53,412 bases of DNA, taken from assembly GCA_903932045.1 (NCBI GenBank), contig CAIZES010000431.1:1-53412 (forward strand), written 5' to 3'. The stretch comes from an uncultured Silvanigrella sp. Its GTDB lineage: Bacteria; Bdellovibrionota_B; Oligoflexia; Silvanigrellales; Silvanigrellaceae. Positions 20,826 through 53,327 of this stretch are shown here, piece after piece (the first letter of the stretch is position 1; each line of letters opens with the position of its first letter). The notes beneath the pieces were generated by a model. It did not search any database. It was not told the DNA's origin and worked only from the letters and a program-made list of their open reading frames with translations. The position numbers and the translations under genes were made by a program.

Positions 20826-21974
20826 ATGATGAGGACTCAAGTGGCCGCCACCAGCACCCGTCCCTTTTTATTTTCGAACTTGTTTATGCCTAACAGTCCG
20901 GCCGAAGTCAGAGTCAATCCTGAGGGTCCGTGGCTCAAGCTCATCGCTGGAGATGCAAGCGACCGAAAGTTTTATCGATTGGAAGGCTCGGAGACAAGCG
21001 CCATTTGTATGCGCTTTCCAAAGTGGGAAGGTGGCTACGGAGGCGATCCTATTAGCTGGCTTGGGATGCACAAAGTGCTTGTTGAAATGGGGATTCCCGT
21101 TCCAGCAGTTTTAGAAATTGACGAACAAAAGGCCTGTATTTGGACCGAAGATTTTGGTGATAATTTCTTAAATTGCGCTTTGATTCACGACATCCTCGAC
21201 CTCAACAATGCCGGTTCAAAGGAGTCTATCGATTACTACCTCCAGGCGTTAGATCTTTTGATTAAAGCGCAATATCCAACCGCAAAACATGGCGAACACC
21301 CCGCTCAGAACTTAGCTTTTGACACTCAGAAACTCATGTTTGAAATGCGCTTCTTTGCCACGCACTTTCTCAATGGATTGCTCCATCTCAATGTCTCGGA
21401 AGATTCTGCGGAGTGGAAGCCCGTTTTTAACGACTTCATGAAACTTTCACAATGGCTCAGCTCGCAAGAGCGTGTTTTGTGCCATCGCGACTATCATGTT
21501 CGAAATGTGATGATTGTTGGTAAAAAAGCAAAGTGGATCGACTTCCAAGATGCACGCATGGGGCCCCACACATATGACGTTGTCAGCCTCGTTCGTGACT
21601 CGTACGTAAACATCACGCCCGAAACACGAAAAATGCTATTCAATTACTATTTTGAAAACCTGAACGTAGCACGAAAACGTTTGGGATACCCACCCATAAC
21701 ACGCGAAAGTTATGAAATAGAAACTTTGCACATGGGCTTACAAAGAAACGTAAAAGCCATTGGCAGCTTTGGATATCTTGCCACAACAAAAGGGAAGCCC
21801 AGCTACCTCTCTTACGTCAAACAAACCTTGGACACACTCACATCAGATGCGTGCGTTTGTGCACATGGATGCGATTTGAACCAAGAATATCCTGCACTGA
21901 TGAAACTTCTCAACAGCCTCAAAAACGGGAAACTGACTTGGGAACTGCAAAACGCCTTAACACGTTTCAACTGA
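20826..21974 (+). CDS. amgK: AmgK-type sugar kinase (APH/choline-kinase fold)
   Basis: A 382-residue phosphotransferase. H220-R-D222 to N227 in CHRDYHVRN is the Brenner catalytic motif. WIDFQDARMGPHTYDVVSLV supplies the metal-binding DFQD and closely matches the AmgK style. AmgK phosphorylates N-acetylmuramate/N-acetylglucosamine at the anomeric carbon during peptidoglycan recycling, feeding MurU. The following gene is a MurU-like nucleotidyltransferase, which is the main support for this call over a generic aminoglycoside-phosphotransferase-like kinase. It is divergent from the UvrA-like gene across about 120 bp. ATG at 20826 or 20829; GAGAAAG lies about 9 nt before. Its stop codon overlaps the first TGATC unit of the 12-bp array. 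Confidence 0.82.
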   Translation: MMRTQVAATSTRPFLFSNLFMPNSPAEVRVNPEGPWLKLIAGDASDRKFYRLEGSETSAICMRFPKWEGGYGGDPISWLGMHKVLVEMGIPVPAVLEIDEQKACIWTEDFGDNFLNCALIHDILDLNNAGSKESIDYYLQALDLLIKAQYPTAKHGEHPAQNLAFDTQKLMFEMRFFATHFLNGLLHLNVSEDSAEWKPVFNDFMKLSQWLSSQERVLCHRDYHVRNVMIVGKKAKWIDFQDARMGPHTYDVVSLVRDSYVNITPETRKMLFNYYFENLNVARKRLGYPPITRESYEIETLHMGLQRNVKAIGSFGYLATTKGKPSYLSYVKQTLDTLTSDACVCAHGCDLNQEYPALMKLLNSLKNGKLTWELQNALTRFN

Positions 21975-22083
21975 TCAAAAGGGTGATCGCAAGGGTGACC
22001 AACCGCCCGATCACTCGTATGATCATCATGCGATCACTAAACTGATCATTCCATTGATCTTTCAATTGATCTTTCAATTGATC
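21972..22083. repeat. 12-bp-period TGATC array (10 units)
   Basis: GATC occurs at 21973, 21985, 22009, 22021, 22032, 22044, 22056, 22068 and 22080, and a GACC variant fills register 21997. Every step is 12 bp except one of 11. Units share TGATC(A/T) at the front and differ in the other six or seven bases, e.g. TGATCAAAAGGG, CGATCACTAAAC, TGATCTTTCAAT. The array fills most of the spacer between the amgK-like and murU-like genes. It has no open frame linking it to either gene product beyond the overlapped stop codon. GATC is expected about once per 260 bp by chance. Confidence 0.85.
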
Positions 22084-22165
22084 TTTCATGTGCTCAACAA
22101 CGGGGTTTGTACAAAATTCACATCTTTCAATAACGCGAAATAACGCAAAAATGGCGGGAAATATT

Positions 22166-23338
22166 ATGGATTTTATTCCAATTGTTCTTTGTGCAGGTTT
22201 TGGAACACGTCTTCGTCCACTCACACATTATGTGCCAAAGCCCGCGGTGCCTGTGGGCGATTTTCCGGTTGCATACTATTCTATCAAACAACTTTTGCAG
22301 GCGGGCGCTGAGGTTGTGCACTGCAACACCCATTTTTTACCAAATGTTGTTGAGGCCGAGCTTGTTGCTGCGCTCAAAAAAGATGGCTATGCAAAAAGTC
22401 GCATCCGCTTTTGGAACGAGCCGGAAATTTTAGAAACCGGTGGAGGCATAGCTCGCATTGTTCACGAACTGCGCAACGAAGATCTTAGGAAATGGAAAGG
22501 AAGAGATATTATTGCCGTTGCTGGAGATGTGTTTGCAAACCCACCCCTTGAAGCCATGATGAAACGATGGAAGTCACGTCCTGAAAACACCTGCGCCCTT
22601 ATGACCACTCGAACATTGCGCACGAGTCGACCCGATGTGACATGGGTTGATAACACCACAAATCAAATTGCTGGATTTGGAAAAGACATAGACTTGCTCA
22701 CGGCTCCACCTCACCTGGAAACCCGCGTTTTTTCAACCCACCAGATCATCGATCAAGAGTGGGTCACGCAAGCGCCTATTGTGAAAGAATCGTCACGCGA
22801 CATCTTTTACCGCGCTGGCCTCAAAAAAGGCCTCCGCATTCTCAATGTTGCTTTTCCCGACGAGAACACGTGGTTTGACATTGGAGATTATGCATCTCTC
22901 GCCACCTGCGCCGCAACATTTGGAACTCCCACGCGGGAACCTTTGCAATGCCTCGTTCTCGAGCCGGACGAAAAATCGCCTCATCAGCGTTTTCGCAGCG
23001 CCATTCTCAAGACCGGGGTGATCAACCGCTTCAGAAGTTCCTTTCATTTGCAATCGGGAGAAAGCCTATCCAATCGGGTGATCAGCCTGATCAGTCAGGC
23101 GAGTACTCAACCCAACACCCGTGTTTTAAACCTCTCCATTGCGCCCGAGGAACCGCGCCTCGTTTTGTGTGCCGAGGCTTGTCCAATCAATCTCCCGTTT
23201 CCACTCCTCCTCTCGCTCGAAGACCTGGAAGGATCTTCTTCGTCTCAACCCTTAATTCCATTCGAAACCCAATCTTCTACTCTAACCAGTTCCACTCTAA
23301 TTCTGTTTCCAACTCTCAATGCTCAATGCTCACCTTGA
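22166..23338 (+). CDS. murU: MurU-like nucleotidyltransferase with C-terminal extension
   Basis: A 390-residue protein. The N-terminal part (about 1-245) is a nucleotidyltransferase: LCAGFGTRLRPLT at 8-20, K25 in PKPAVPV, AGDVFANPP as the metal-binding Asp segment, and a late NTWFDIGDY. MurU converts MurNAc-1-phosphate to UDP-MurNAc with UTP. At about 220-240 residues MurU is much shorter, so the last 140 residues here are an unexplained, low-homology extension ending in a Ser/Thr-rich stretch. The frame is open to 22088, but GCGGGAA lies just before the ATG at 22166. The gene follows the amgK-like gene and converges on a LysM gene with a 16-bp overlap. GlmU/RfbA-like activity cannot be excluded. 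Confidence 0.8.
   Translation: MDFIPIVLCAGFGTRLRPLTHYVPKPAVPVGDFPVAYYSIKQLLQAGAEVVHCNTHFLPNVVEAELVAALKKDGYAKSRIRFWNEPEILETGGGIARIVHELRNEDLRKWKGRDIIAVAGDVFANPPLEAMMKRWKSRPENTCALMTTRTLRTSRPDVTWVDNTTNQIAGFGKDIDLLTAPPHLETRVFSTHQIIDQEWVTQAPIVKESSRDIFYRAGLKKGLRILNVAFPDENTWFDIGDYASLATCAATFGTPTREPLQCLVLEPDEKSPHQRFRSAILKTGVINRFRSSFHLQSGESLSNRVISLISQASTQPNTRVLNLSIAPEEPRLVLCAEACPINLPFPLLLSLEDLEGSSSSQPLIPFETQSSTLTSSTLILFPTLNAQCSP
23019..23094. repeat. TGATCA cluster inside the murU-like extension
   Basis: TGATCA occurs at 23019, 23079 and 23088, and CAATCGGG occurs at 23051 and 23071. They fall in the part encoding the unexplained C-terminal extension. The cluster lies less than 1 kb from the 12-bp array and about 1.5 kb from the 8-bp array. 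Confidence 0.55.
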
Positions 23339-24399
23339 GCAACATGCATCCAGTTTGTTACAATAAGTTCCATTCCCACCTTAATCATGTCTGGGTTCTT
23401 AATTCTGGGATTGTCTTTCAGAATGGCTCTCCAAGCAGTTGCCGTACCCAGTTCGCGTTGAGCAATTGTCCAAAGAGAATCACCAGCCACAACTTTGACG
23501 AGCTTCTTTGGAGTTGATTCATTTTTGCTTGCGAAAGTTTTTGCCTTTGCATCCAGGCGGTAAAGAATAACATCACCTGTATAGATGAGATCGGCATTGG
23601 AAAGATTGTTTTGGTTTGCAAGTTCTTGCCAGCGTTTTGTTGTGCCGTAAATGTGTGATGCAATCGAGGCCAGAGTGTCACCTTTTTGAACACGGTATGC
23701 CAACAAACTCCCTTCTTCAGGAAGCGCACCAACTGATTCGGAGCCAGGAGCTACGGGAATTGTGTCTACAACAGAAGCAGCGGGTTGTTCCACTGGTGCA
23801 CTCACCGAAGCAGGGGCTGCAGCGGGTTGTTCCACTGGCGCACTCACGGAAGCAGGGGCTGCAGGTTGTGCTGCTGGTTTTACATCGGCCGCCACAGCTT
23901 GCTCAATAGACTGTTGCTGCGCAAAAGGATCTGCTGCAGGTTGTTCTGCAACCGGTGTCGGTGCTGCAACAGGCGAGGCAACGTCAACAGGAGCATTCTC
24001 GGCAGCATTTTTTTCATTCAAAAGCACTGCATTTGCATTATTTGATGCCGGTGGTGTTGCTTCTGCCGGAGCCGCAGGCGTGTTCGTGACTGCATTATTG
24101 AGATCTTTGTCGGCGGCGGAAGCAGGAGCCTCGTTGCCCACCGATGGTTTTTCTGCAACATTTGCAGGAGCAGCGGCCTCAGATTTTGCATTTTCTGAAG
24201 TGACTTCTCCAGCGCTTTCTGCAAGCTTTTCATCTTTTGCAGCACCATTCGATGCGGGCGCGGCTGCAGCACTTGCCACAACAGCGGGATCAGTGGCTTC
24301 ACCCTCATCTGTAGAAACACAAGCGGTCATCGATGTTCCAACCAAGAACAAAGTGGCACACATGGCAATTACATTTTTCGTTCCGAAAATCCTTTTCAT
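23323..24399 (-). CDS. LysM-domain lipoprotein 1
   Basis: A 358-residue lipoprotein. The signal peptide ends in MTAC (Cys about 27). A linker of about 200 residues dominated by Ala, Pro, Val, Glu and Asn includes a 14-residue repeat. Then two LysM domains follow: one beginning YRVQKGDTLASIASHIYG, the other beginning VKVVAGDSLWTIAQRELG. LysM binds peptidoglycan glycan strands, so the protein probably tethers membrane and wall. AAAGGA lies 7 nt before the ATG. It is a paralogue of the next LysM gene upstream, with the same architecture. The 3' end overlaps the convergent murU-like gene by 16 bp. Confidence 0.9.
   Translation of the reverse strand: MKRIFGTKNVIAMCATLFLVGTSMTACVSTDEGEATDPAVVASAAAAPASNGAAKDEKLAESAGEVTSENAKSEAAAPANVAEKPSVGNEAPASAADKDLNNAVTNTPAAPAEATPPASNNANAVLLNEKNAAENAPVDVASPVAAPTPVAEQPAADPFAQQQSIEQAVAADVKPAAQPAAPASVSAPVEQPAAAPASVSAPVEQPAASVVDTIPVAPGSESVGALPEEGSLLAYRVQKGDTLASIASHIYGTTKRWQELANQNNLSNADLIYTGDVILYRLDAKAKTFASKNESTPKKLVKVVAGDSLWTIAQRELGTATAWRAILKDNPRIKNPDMIKVGMELIVTNWMHVAQGEH
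23777..23860. repeat. 42-bp direct repeat, two copies
   Basis: Two tandem 42-bp units (23777-23818 and 23819-23860) differ at only a few bases. They encode a 14-residue Ala/Pro/Val/Ser element in the linker of LysM lipoprotein 1. In-frame, so linker length could vary between strains. Confidence 0.8.
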
Positions 24400-24417: not shown

Positions 24418-24539
24418 TTTAACAAGTCTTGCAAAGTGCGAAAGTCACTTCACGCTTCACGCCTGTGGGGTCCATCGGAGTTTTACAACGAAACTTAACA
24501 CGTCAATTTTTAAATGGGGGAGTTTTTTTGACGCTCGGT

Positions 24540-24659
24540 TATCACGCGATCAAATGATAAGGTGATCACCTCATCTGACCATCGCACGATCACCTGATCA
24601 TCTGATCATCTGATCAGGTGATCGTGTGATAAATTGATCATCTCATCACATGATCACTG
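24540..24659. repeat. 8-bp-period TGATCA array (15 registers)
   Basis: A strict 8-bp frame runs without slip from 24540 to 24659. GATC is at 24548, 24564, 24588, 24596, 24604, 24612, 24620, 24636 and 24652. One-base variants fill the remaining registers: TATC 24540, GATA 24556 and 24628, CATC 24572, 24580 and 24644. The consensus unit is TGATCANN, with the hexamer conserved and two bases free. It lies about 140 bp upstream of the start of LysM lipoprotein 1, downstream of the terminator of LysM 2. No coding role is possible in this orientation. Confidence 0.88.
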
Positions 24660-24821: not shown

Positions 24822-24857
24822 AAAAAAAGGAGATAGGAAAGCAATTTTCCTATCTCC
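24822..24857 (-). terminator. Rho-independent terminator of LysM lipoprotein 2
   Basis: A perfect 12-bp stem (GGAGATAGGAAA 24829-24840 with its complement 24846-24857) has a 5-nt loop. On the minus strand it is followed directly by seven T residues (complement of 24822-24828). It lies about 140 bp beyond the stop at 24998 and is the clearest terminator in the window. Confidence 0.9.
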
Positions 24858-24997
24858 CGGTCACGACGAGTTCTCAAAAATCTCGCTTACTGTTTTCGCT
24901 AATACTGCTACAGTCTTGACAAGCTCTAGCCTTTGCGAACTCCCACCGAATCAACAGTGACTCACGTCACACCTTCGAGTTGAGCTCTTTAAGCACC

Positions 24998-26065
24998 CTA
25001 TTGAGCCATGGCAACAAAGACATCATCACCATTGGCATCTGCTTGAGCCTCGGCTTCGTTGTCATCATTATCTTCATCGGGAACATCAATTGCATTTTGC
25101 GCTGTCTTTTTCTCATTCGAACCGCTACGAAAAGCAAGAACCATTCCCACCACAAGACGATCGGGGTTTTTAAGACGAGGATTCATCTTCCAAAGAGTCC
25201 GCCACTCTTGCTGACTTCCCAGAACCTTTGCTGCAATCGAAGACAAAGTATCGCCCTTTGAAACTGTCATAGTTGTTCTACCAGAAGCTTCGTACGCGGT
25301 TGCAAAATTCTTTGACTTCTCCGTAAGGGTGTAGAAAAGCACATCACCTGCGTAAATTCGAGATGGGTCGCTCAATTTGTTTTCTTCCGCCAGTTTTCGC
25401 CATTGAGACTTATCACCATACACCGCCGCAGCAATATCCCCCAAAGTATCACCTCGCCTGATATAATAGGGCATTAATGTTCCCATTTCAGGAAGTGAAG
25501 CCACACCACCACCTCCTCCATCGCCGGTTGCAGGAGGAACGCTCGCCGGAGATGGCTCAGGTGCGGGCACAGGAGCCGCACTCGCCGTAGAACCTTCAGG
25601 TGCAGGCGCTGGCGCAAAAGGATCGGAACCCACGGCGTCGGGAGCTGGAGCCGAACCCGTAGCAGCCTTAGGGGCACTTTCATTCACCAAGCCCTGAAGC
25701 TCGGCACCCGCAGCCCCGGGTGCTGGAGTTGCTGTCGGGTTTGCGGGCGCTCCTTGGGCAGAGTTGTTTAGTGCATCGGCAAAGGGATCGGCATTGGCAG
25801 CATTTTTTGCCTTAGCGCCCTCACCCGATGCATTATTGCCCGAGGCAGTATTTCCGTTCGCAGCAATGTTTGCGTCGTTCGATTTTGCCGTGTTGTCGGC
25901 CGACGCTTCGTCTGTTGCTGCAGCACTGTTTTCGCTTGGCGAGACCTGTTCCGTTGCAGGTGTCTCGGCGTCATTCGACGTGATACAAGCCGTAAAGCTC
26001 ATGCTTGCAACAAAGGCCGCAGTAGCAGCAGCCAAAACTCTCCAACGCGAAATCATTTTCTTCAT
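24998..26065 (-). CDS. LysM-domain lipoprotein 2
   Basis: A protein of about 355 residues. The signal peptide begins MKKMISRWRVLAAATAAF and ends in FTAC. An Ala/Pro/Asn-rich linker is followed by two LysM domains, starting YYIRRGDTLGDIAAAVYG and MTVSKGDTLSSIAAKVLG, then an acidic Asp/Glu-rich tail. The layout matches LysM lipoprotein 1, pointing to an old tandem duplication. A GTG at 26080 is in frame, but its bases belong to the GAGGGG SD of the ATG at 26065, which is preferred. It is divergent from rsmH over about 180 bp and terminated at 24822-24857. Predicted peptidoglycan-binding envelope protein. Confidence 0.9.
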   Translation of the reverse strand: MKKMISRWRVLAAATAAFVASMSFTACITSNDAETPATEQVSPSENSAAATDEASADNTAKSNDANIAANGNTASGNNASGEGAKAKNAANADPFADALNNSAQGAPANPTATPAPGAAGAELQGLVNESAPKAATGSAPAPDAVGSDPFAPAPAPEGSTASAAPVPAPEPSPASVPPATGDGGGGGVASLPEMGTLMPYYIRRGDTLGDIAAAVYGDKSQWRKLAEENKLSDPSRIYAGDVLFYTLTEKSKNFATAYEASGRTTMTVSKGDTLSSIAAKVLGSQQEWRTLWKMNPRLKNPDRLVVGMVLAFRSGSNEKKTAQNAIDVPDEDNDDNEAEAQADANGDDVFVAMAQ

Positions 26066-26243
26066 GGGTTTGCCCCTCACAGTTCAGCGCCTCACAAATG
26101 CACAGCCCGTACATTCTCCGGTGCCCTAGTCTTCACAGAGTCTTTCGGCGTTCGTTTCCGAAACTTGAGGACGCCGTACTGACACCTTTTCATTTTCGAA
26201 AAAAACTGACATGCTCAATTTGCCGAGCATAGGAGAAAACCTT

Positions 26244-41730: not shown

Positions 41731-41975
41731 GACGAGGTCTTGACAGCATCTGACATCTAGAAATTCTAGCTGCGGAGAATGAGCGGCAATTACAAGATAA
41801 AGTTAGCACAGAAACTCCTTGCAGAAGCCAGTCACTACACCACGTCTCCCTCTCCCGCAACACGCGGCCCCCCCGTTTCACGTGAAACAGCGCTTTATTC
41901 ACGCGAAAAGTTTGAACATTTTTTCACTTTTTTATTTATTCAAAAAAAATCGACAGCGAATTGCAAACGAATCCT
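41731..41975. other. Spacer between the ftsZ end and the ATP synthase-linked operon
   Basis: Apart from the parS site at 41875-41888, I see an AT-rich stretch (41912-41950) after it and no supportable gene. It lies where two transcription units converge. Confidence 0.5.
41875..41888. promoter_or_regulatory. parS centromere-like site 1
   Basis: GTTTCACGTGAAAC is the perfect palindromic core of the chromosomal parS consensus bound by ParB. It sits in the spacer between convergent ftsZ and the minus-strand operon. A ParB gene lies 10 kb away with a second site at 51524-51539, so function is likely. Confidence 0.88.
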
Positions 41976-46353: not shown

Positions 46354-47286
46354 TCATAGAGCCTCGGCGCCACTCACAATCTCAATCAATTCCTTTGTAA
46401 TGGCAGCCTGACGCGCACGCTGATACGTAACTTGCAGCTTACGCAGCATTTCTTTTGCGTTACGTGTTGCACTATCCATGGCGGCCATGCGTGCACAATG
46501 TTCGCTTGCCACGGCCTCCAAAAGAGTTTGATACACCGCGGTTGCCAAGTAGCGCGGCAGTGCAACGTCCAACACCTCTTGTGCCGATGGTTCAAAAGTA
46601 GCCTCACCCGGCTTTTCACCCGAAAGAGCATTCTTGTCGAAAGGCAAAACCGTTTCTGCGACCAATGGCAAATTTCCTGCCGACTCAAACCGTGTGAACA
46701 CAAAGATGAGTTTTCCAAAGTTCTTGCCAAAAGAATTGATGATCAAGTGCGAAAGCGCTTCAGAAAAGGGTTTTACACGCTTTTCAAAGGGCGTTGCCAC
46801 CAACCTGATCACCCCCTGATCACCAAACTGATCAGGCGCACTCTCCAAATCAGTGAGTGCGCATTGCTTATTCACAAAGCCCTTGATTGCCGCATTTCGG
46901 ATCAAACTCTGGTGAGCTTTTTTGCCTAGGCAGGTGATCGCCACCTTCCGTCCGGCCTCCTGCTCTTCCGCGAGCATCTTAAGCGTAAGCTTTGTTACGT
47001 TTGAATTATAGCTTCCACAAAGTCCGCGCTCCGAAGACACAACAATAATATGCGTCACGTCCGACTTTGAGGGCTCCATAAGAGGATGAGATGCTCCCGC
47101 ACCCAAACTCCCCACCACATCTCGCACCATGCGCATCAAAGCTCGGGCATACGGTTTCGCTTGAAAGACCGTGGTTTGAGCTCGACCAAATTTCGCGGTC
47201 GATACCAACTTCATGGCCTTCGTAATTTGCTCCGTATTCCGAACGCTCCGAATGCGCGTTCGAAGGTCTTTAAGATTTGCCGGCAT
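46354..47286 (-). CDS. atpG: ATP synthase gamma subunit, with internal insertion
   Basis: A 310-residue central rotor shaft. The N-terminal coil ([20 protein letters not shown], then [12 protein letters not shown]) and C-terminal coil ([17 protein letters not shown]) are canonical, as are GLCGSYNSN and [17 protein letters not shown]. Around residues 155-180 there is a segment ([20 protein letters not shown]) that appears about 20 residues longer than typical gamma subunits. It is encoded by the TGATCA cluster 46806-46834. The start overlaps the end of atpA by 17 bp. An in-frame TTG three codons upstream is less likely. Confidence 0.95.
46806..46834. repeat. TGATCA cluster within atpG
   Basis: TGATCA occurs at 46806, 46817 and 46829, with steps of 11 and 12 bp matching the period of the array at 21972-22083. 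Within 100 bp lies the palindrome TGCCTAGGCA (46923-46932) shared with the CCTNAG block at 24684-24805. The cluster codes for the extra loop in the gamma subunit. Confidence 0.6.
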
Positions 47287-51523: not shown

Positions 51524-51539
51524 TGTTTCACGTGGAACA
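51524..51539. promoter_or_regulatory. parS centromere-like site 2
   Basis: TGTTTCACGTGGAACA matches the 16-bp chromosomal parS consensus with one asymmetric position. It lies 135 bp upstream of the parB start, where ParB spreading could also repress the divergent genes. Confidence 0.88.
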
Positions 51540-52715: not shown

Positions 52716-53327
52716 ATGAATCTCAAATCGATTGTTTTTATAAGCACTATGAGTCTCTTGAATGTAGCCTGCAGTTCTGCAAAGGACGCCCAACCAGCCC
52801 CCACTCCCACTCCCACTCCCACTCCCACTCCCACACCGGCAGCACCCGCAACGCCAAACACTCCAGTCACTCTTGGAGCACCAGTCCCAACATCAGCCAA
52901 CTCAAATCCAACCAATGACACTCAAAATGCTTTCAAAATCATCGATCGAGAGCTTTCTCGGCTCACAATCAACGGTTATCCTTATCTTCTCTTTATCATG
53001 AATCCCAACGACCCCACCGTCGAAATCACAACAATGACCATCAACGACAAGCCCGCGAGTGCCCAAACATTAGGATCAGAAAATGCCGTAGACTTTCTTG
53101 GCCGATGTACAGAAAAAATATTCGATAATATCTTTTCTGAGGCCGATGACTCCTACAAAACCTCACTTCGAAAAAAATCCGCACCCTTTTTCAACCGTGC
53201 ATATTGCTATTACATTGAAGGGTACAACTTTAGTCAGTACAAAGAAACAGGTACAAATATTCGTTTCACATTTTCAAAAAATTCCCTTCCCATTGGCACT
53301 TTCACACTCAAAATCAAACCCGACTAA
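52716..53327 (+). CDS. Lipoprotein with Pro-Thr repeat linker
   Basis: A 203-residue lipoprotein. The signal peptide (MNLKSIVFISTMSLLN) ends in VAC, then SSAKDAQP and a (Pro-Thr)6 linker. A domain of about 140 residues with three Cys (ending TFTLKIKPD) follows; I do not recognise it. AAAGGAG lies 7 nt before the ATG; the frame is open upstream to 52608 but without SD. A sigma-54 promoter precedes it, so expression should need an enhancer-binding activator. Outer-membrane or periplasm-facing protein of unknown role. Confidence 0.8.
   Translation: MNLKSIVFISTMSLLNVACSSAKDAQPAPTPTPTPTPTPTPAAPATPNTPVTLGAPVPTSANSNPTNDTQNAFKIIDRELSRLTINGYPYLLFIMNPNDPTVEITTMTINDKPASAQTLGSENAVDFLGRCTEKIFDNIFSEADDSYKTSLRKKSAPFFNRAYCYYIEGYNFSQYKETGTNIRFTFSKNSLPIGTFTLKIKPD
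52800..52834. repeat. CCCACT hexanucleotide microsatellite
   Basis: Five perfect CCCACT copies plus a partial sixth encode the Pro-Thr linker of the lipoprotein. Changes in copy number would lengthen or shorten the linker without a frameshift. Confidence 0.9.

Follow-up and report, generated by a model that had tools for sequence, protein, structure and literature searches.

A 53,412-nucleotide contig of an uncultured Silvanigrella sp. (CAIZES010000431.1; the whole stretch is called the window below) carries fifteen TGATCA-like units at 8-bp steps upstream of a LysM lipoprotein gene, and a second array of the same hexamer at 12-bp steps about 2.5 kb away. In both arrays the hexamer core is conserved and the filler between the cores is saturated with changes. 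Constraint on the cores and neutral evolution appear close to equal in likelihood, constraint being slightly favoured. Our tentative reading, placed at somewhat below even chances, is that the 8-bp array arose by slippage and that its cores were retained afterwards, forming a cis element with several sites that is probably sensitive to methylation. The 8-bp array and its surroundings comprise the following features.

About 24539-24659: 8-bp array, 15 units of TGATCANN
24563, 24595, 24603, 24611, 24635 and 24651: positions of the intact TGATCA words in this array
24585-24626: 16-bp perfect inverted repeat within the array, arms CACGATCACCTGATCA / TGATCAGGTGATCGTG
23323-24399, minus strand: LysM lipoprotein gene 1, with the array about 140-260 bp upstream of the gene start
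24828-24858, minus strand: hairpin resembling an intrinsic terminator, located behind LysM gene 2 and separating it from the array
24998-26080, minus strand: LysM lipoprotein gene 2, a paralogue of gene 1

The regularity first described for this array was borne out, as GATC or a one-base variant occupies fifteen consecutive 8-bp registers without a slip, compared with a longest in-register run of five when the window was dinucleotide-shuffled 100 times and any step of 5-16 bp was allowed. TRF scored the same tract at only 8.6 copies and 73%. The accompanying statement that the hexamer is kept was too strong, since intact TGATCA is present in 6 of the 15 units and GATC in 9, and the central AT, found in all 15, is the sole invariant part. 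In the register TGATCANN, pairwise disagreement in the successive core columns is 0.34, 0.45, 0, 0, 0.25 and 0.36, and the two filler columns are saturated (0.76 and 0.78). The further remark that the array does not look like a recent tandem duplication fails for part of it, where two neighbouring units both read TGATCATC.

The second array and two smaller TGATCA clusters, both located in coding sequences, had escaped the original prediction, which was right as to the existence of the 8-bp array. Their positions, with those of the genes flanking the second array, are listed below.

20826-21974, plus strand: amgK-like sugar kinase gene
21972-22090: 12-bp array, 10 units of TGATCA or a near variant plus six variable bases, with one 11-bp step
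22166-23338, plus strand: murU-like nucleotidyltransferase gene, preceded by the 12-bp array
23079-23093: TGATCA pair at a 9-bp step, within the murU coding sequence
46806-46834: three TGATCA at steps of 11 and 12, within the atpG coding sequence

The 12-bp array is situated between amgK and murU, with its unit 1 overlapping the amgK stop codon, and takes up most of the 190-bp spacer between the two genes (21975-22165). Both long arrays are intergenic, each upstream of a gene, and both fall inside a 2.7-kb stretch, sharing the hexamer and differing in step. The longest word common to them has at most 8 bases. Neither therefore has the appearance of a block copied from its counterpart, and derivation of one from the other was rejected. 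No TGATCA pair at most 20 bp apart was found outside this contig in the whole genome, an incomplete MAG of 4.2 Mb in 503 contigs. Genome-wide, TGATCA is not abundant (0.17 per kb), and a HIP1-like palindrome was rejected on this ground. Misbinning of the contig was also rejected, as its composition agrees with that of the other MAG contigs sampled.

The neighbourhood of the arrays has a history of its own. Where the window has two LysM genes, the nearest relatives have only one, located between murU and rsmH; this points to a duplication of the gene in this lineage, from which the spacer holding the 8-bp array probably follows. The distance between amgK and murU is about 1.6-1.8 kb in four family members (G001, G002, G005 and G007), and in a more distant relative (G014) amgK directly adjoins murU. 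In addition, LysM gene 1 contains a 42-bp repeat (23777-23864).

Two origins had been proposed for the 8-bp array, namely an old array selected for its palindrome and a polymer built by slippage that then drifted, and these proved to be the right alternatives to weigh, with uniform drift missing the contrast between core and filler. In neutral simulations with point mutation and unit duplication, matched to overall divergence (n = 300 per array), the observed contrast was reached in 0 of 300 runs for the 8-bp array and 1 of 300 for the 12-bp array, and in 0-0.7% of runs with hairpin-templated copying added, values that are too favourable to constraint because the models are simple and the 8-bp array was noticed as extreme, having been picked for its regularity. 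The 12-bp array, which has the same hexamer, was not picked in this way. Among the other old arrays in 546 kb of this genome the contrast is at most 0.38, compared with 0.62 here. Minisatellites and simple sequence repeats resemble the 8-bp array in having tandem units of equal length, identical or near-identical neighbours and many occurrences in the genome; however, their variation is spread over the unit, whereas in the window arrays it is concentrated in the filler.

A neutral origin nevertheless remains a substantial contender that we would place short of an even chance: the array may be an old, functionless minisatellite that grew by slippage and drifted, in which quasipalindrome copying between palindromic units scrambles the filler yet maintains similarity in the self-complementary columns. 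In the sampled contigs, TRF detected 138 tandem arrays in 546 kb (about 25 per 100 kb) with periods of 6-54, most commonly 12, 9, 15 and 18 (e.g., L068, L069 and L081), and the longer, multi-copy ones are mostly near-identical internally. A fresh 8-bp array, (TGATGACG)n with about 14 units, was also found on another contig (C49:3-120). The genome is full of short tandem repeats, and slippage is therefore a ready source of the array. Besides the identical neighbouring units, the 16-bp inverted repeat supports such copying, as its arms have a non-consensus core in common (CGATCA / TGATCG) and it was matched in 0 of 100 unit permutations. Shared derived bases of this kind are the expected product of template switching at imperfect palindromes, which at imperfect inverted repeats is described as an established mutation route (PMC7202029, PMC3820800), and simulated hairpin copying often yields long inverted repeats. 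The absence of the array from relatives is also in line with neutrality. On the other side, hairpin copying rarely produced the contrast in the simulations, and neutrality leaves unexplained why the same hexamer occurs in two arrays of different step within 2.7 kb.

According to the preferred reading, in which the cores are retained, a lineage-specific array would have been born by short-repeat slippage with some hairpin-templated copying in a repeat-rich genome, and its TGATCA cores would then have been kept, adjacent Dam-methylatable sites working as one multi-site cis element. The most likely role of the 8-bp array would be that of an operator for the LysM gene downstream of it, cooperative and sensitive to methylation, and the 12-bp array would play an equivalent part for murU. 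The genome encodes a Dam-family methylase, closest to DpnM, and the GATC words of the arrays may well be methylated for this reason. Methylation is predicted, as are a protein that binds the sites and control of the two genes related to peptidoglycan. The suggestion that a protein polymer reads one site per 8 bp found no direct support. Each array also contains a weak promoter-like match directed towards its gene, little above regional chance in both cases.

24554-24581, minus strand: TGGTCA-16-TATCAT, 9/12, in the 8-bp array, towards LysM gene 1
21995-22023, plus strand: GTGACC-17-TATGAT, 9/12, in the 12-bp array, towards murU

Several observations speak against retention of the cores for a function, including the partial preservation of GATC and TGATCA among the units, the lack of either array in relatives, the lack of a P1-type pacase, the near-chance level of the promoter-like matches and the slippage arrays elsewhere in the genome. 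If the cores are selected, the locus would represent a long multi-copy array of Dam sites in bacterial chromosomal DNA. It would then be a naturally occurring substrate on which cooperative, methylation-sensitive reading of DNA could be studied, and a hint that the arrays of phage P1 belong to a wider class. If they are neutral, it would clearly illustrate how slippage and hairpin copying in a repeat-rich genome can mimic an array of conserved motifs, a point of relevance to motif-finding in general.

The 8-bp TGATCA array was found in no relative within the class, and the 12-bp layout gave only weak matches with three mismatches among relatives, except for one regular array in a distant relative (G039). 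In the murU-LysM spacer of G039, a short TGATTANN array with an 8-bp step is present (contig C3:8159-8196, L163), which is taken as independent of the window arrays. No closer genome was found, this MAG being the one genome of the genus among those searched, and a scan of genome contigs matched only distant LysM proteins. It had been anticipated that a selected function would be unlikely if relatives lacked the array and the genome held no other copy; the first half of this describes the result, as no relative has the array, and the second does not, since the 12-bp array is close by. A class-wide conserved TGATCA site in the murU-LysM interval was suggested by a 6.4-fold raw enrichment and rejected after genus correction: with each genus counted once, the enrichment is 2.8-fold, ranks 19 among all hexamers and sits within a general composition shift. 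Most TGATCA clusters in relatives were judged by eye to be coding or chance occurrences.

The original interpretation, sound in its two broad options, was mistaken in regarding the array as unlike any described element. TGATCA at 8-bp steps was detected in 77 IMG/VR contigs, all in one common context (TTGATCAAATGATCAAGTGATCAC) that matches P1-like phages at lox-cre. In the P1 record, Dam methylation sites are annotated in the cre regulatory region, one of which overlaps the -35 of a cre promoter. The P1 cre control region (pR1/P3cre) has TGATCA every 8 bp with two free bases between and lies upstream of a gene, and the window array likewise has TGATCA/GATC at 8-bp steps; the P1 region differs in having 2-3 units versus 15, in placing a site on the -35 of an annotated promoter and in belonging to a phage, not a bacterial chromosome. 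A second shared TGATCA cluster, with steps of 8 and 15, was observed in P1-like phage-plasmids beside TTTATATAA-like sequence (L222:5294, L205:1006, L217:8879 and others); at this locus a Pantoea plasmid match has no feature listed and an Acinetobacter match has an integrase gene.

The 12-bp array has its own counterpart in the same phages. The pac site of P1 is described as having seven TGATCA/G hexamers that carry Dam sites (PMC10028697), spaced by 7, 12, 15 and 12, 11 in AF234172, with an IHF site and a defined cleavage annotated between the two hexamer clusters. In scans of viral contigs, the pacA-like terminase genes of P1-like phages proved to contain TGATCA words spaced at exactly 12 bp and separated by varied filler; these terminases belong to phrog_1711 and are similar to phage D6 and P1 PacA. 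P1 pac (HEX4/HEX3) and the phrog_1711 phages, with 5-6 units at strict 12-bp steps, share with the 12-bp array of the window the TGATCA/G hexamers, each holding a Dam site. However, P1 pac is located within pacA and functions together with PacA/PacB, whereas the window arrays lie outside terminase genes, and the roughly 12-bp step is found in the 12-bp array only, that of the 8-bp array being another. P1-type PacA had no match in 56 genomes (the source genome and 55 relatives) in a search run without a positive control, and phrog_1711 had none in the source genome, itself an incomplete MAG. Their greater length, their chromosomal location and the failure to find a PacA-type protein are the reasons for not classing the window arrays as pac sites.

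It is quite improbable that the arrays form a chromosomal pac-like site at which packaging by a phage, a phage satellite or a gene transfer agent would start, read by a terminase small subunit. The layout of the 12-bp array, with TGATCA/G at 12-bp steps, an occasional 11 and varied filler, matches that of P1-like pac, and P1 pac sites placed in a chromosome are reported to raise its packaging (Huang & Masters 2014, as cited in PMC10028697); yet the 8-bp array is unlike pac, no P1-type PacA was detected, and the window has the gene content of an ordinary stretch of core chromosome, with cell-division and ATP synthase genes and parB. Methylation-linked elements with TGATCA at 8-bp and at 12-bp steps both exist in one phage group, a precedent that favours the preferred reading. 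A wider proposal is that the window holds a family of TGATCA arrays with both steps, probably near the origin, that would be read cooperatively by a putative chromosomal methylation-sensitive protein and would be the cellular counterpart of the two P1 elements; we consider this unlikely as a whole.

The contig is probably origin-proximal, because parB (51674) with a canonical parS alongside (51524-51539) and the atp genes close by are all present. This location would suit a partition or nucleoid-anchoring site near the origin read by a polymerising protein, and contiguous short-repeat centromeres do exist: parS of pSM19035, bound by the omega/RHH ParB, has 7-10 contiguous 7-bp heptads with an ATCAC core that overlap promoters (PMC9499535). 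The window arrays resemble it in being contiguous short repeats. It differs in its 7-bp step, its non-palindromic unit, its plasmid location and its dedicated delta/omega genes; the window has no contiguous WATCACW heptads, and its 8-bp array has a step of 8 and a palindromic core. A partition role is very improbable, given that the chromosome already has ParB and parS, that some 27-30 kb separate the arrays from these and that relatives are without them. A second near-match to parS occurs after ftsZ (41874-41889).

The arrays might also act as a structured RNA or cruciform (hairpin) element instead of a duplex binding site, which appears very improbable. DNA folding gave z values of -4.3 and -4.2 relative to dinucleotide shuffles, and the 12-bp array showed a modest excess relative to unit permutations (p about 0.01). 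However, when the palindromic cores were kept, the 8-bp array reached a z of only -1.4 (p 0.11 relative to unit permutations), indicating that it folds little beyond its cores, and Rfam had no match for the arrays; a functional RNA was rejected on these two grounds. Elsewhere in the window, nearly six perfect copies of CCCACT (52800-52834) were noticed in a lipoprotein-like coding sequence, which makes this tract a candidate length-variable repeat.
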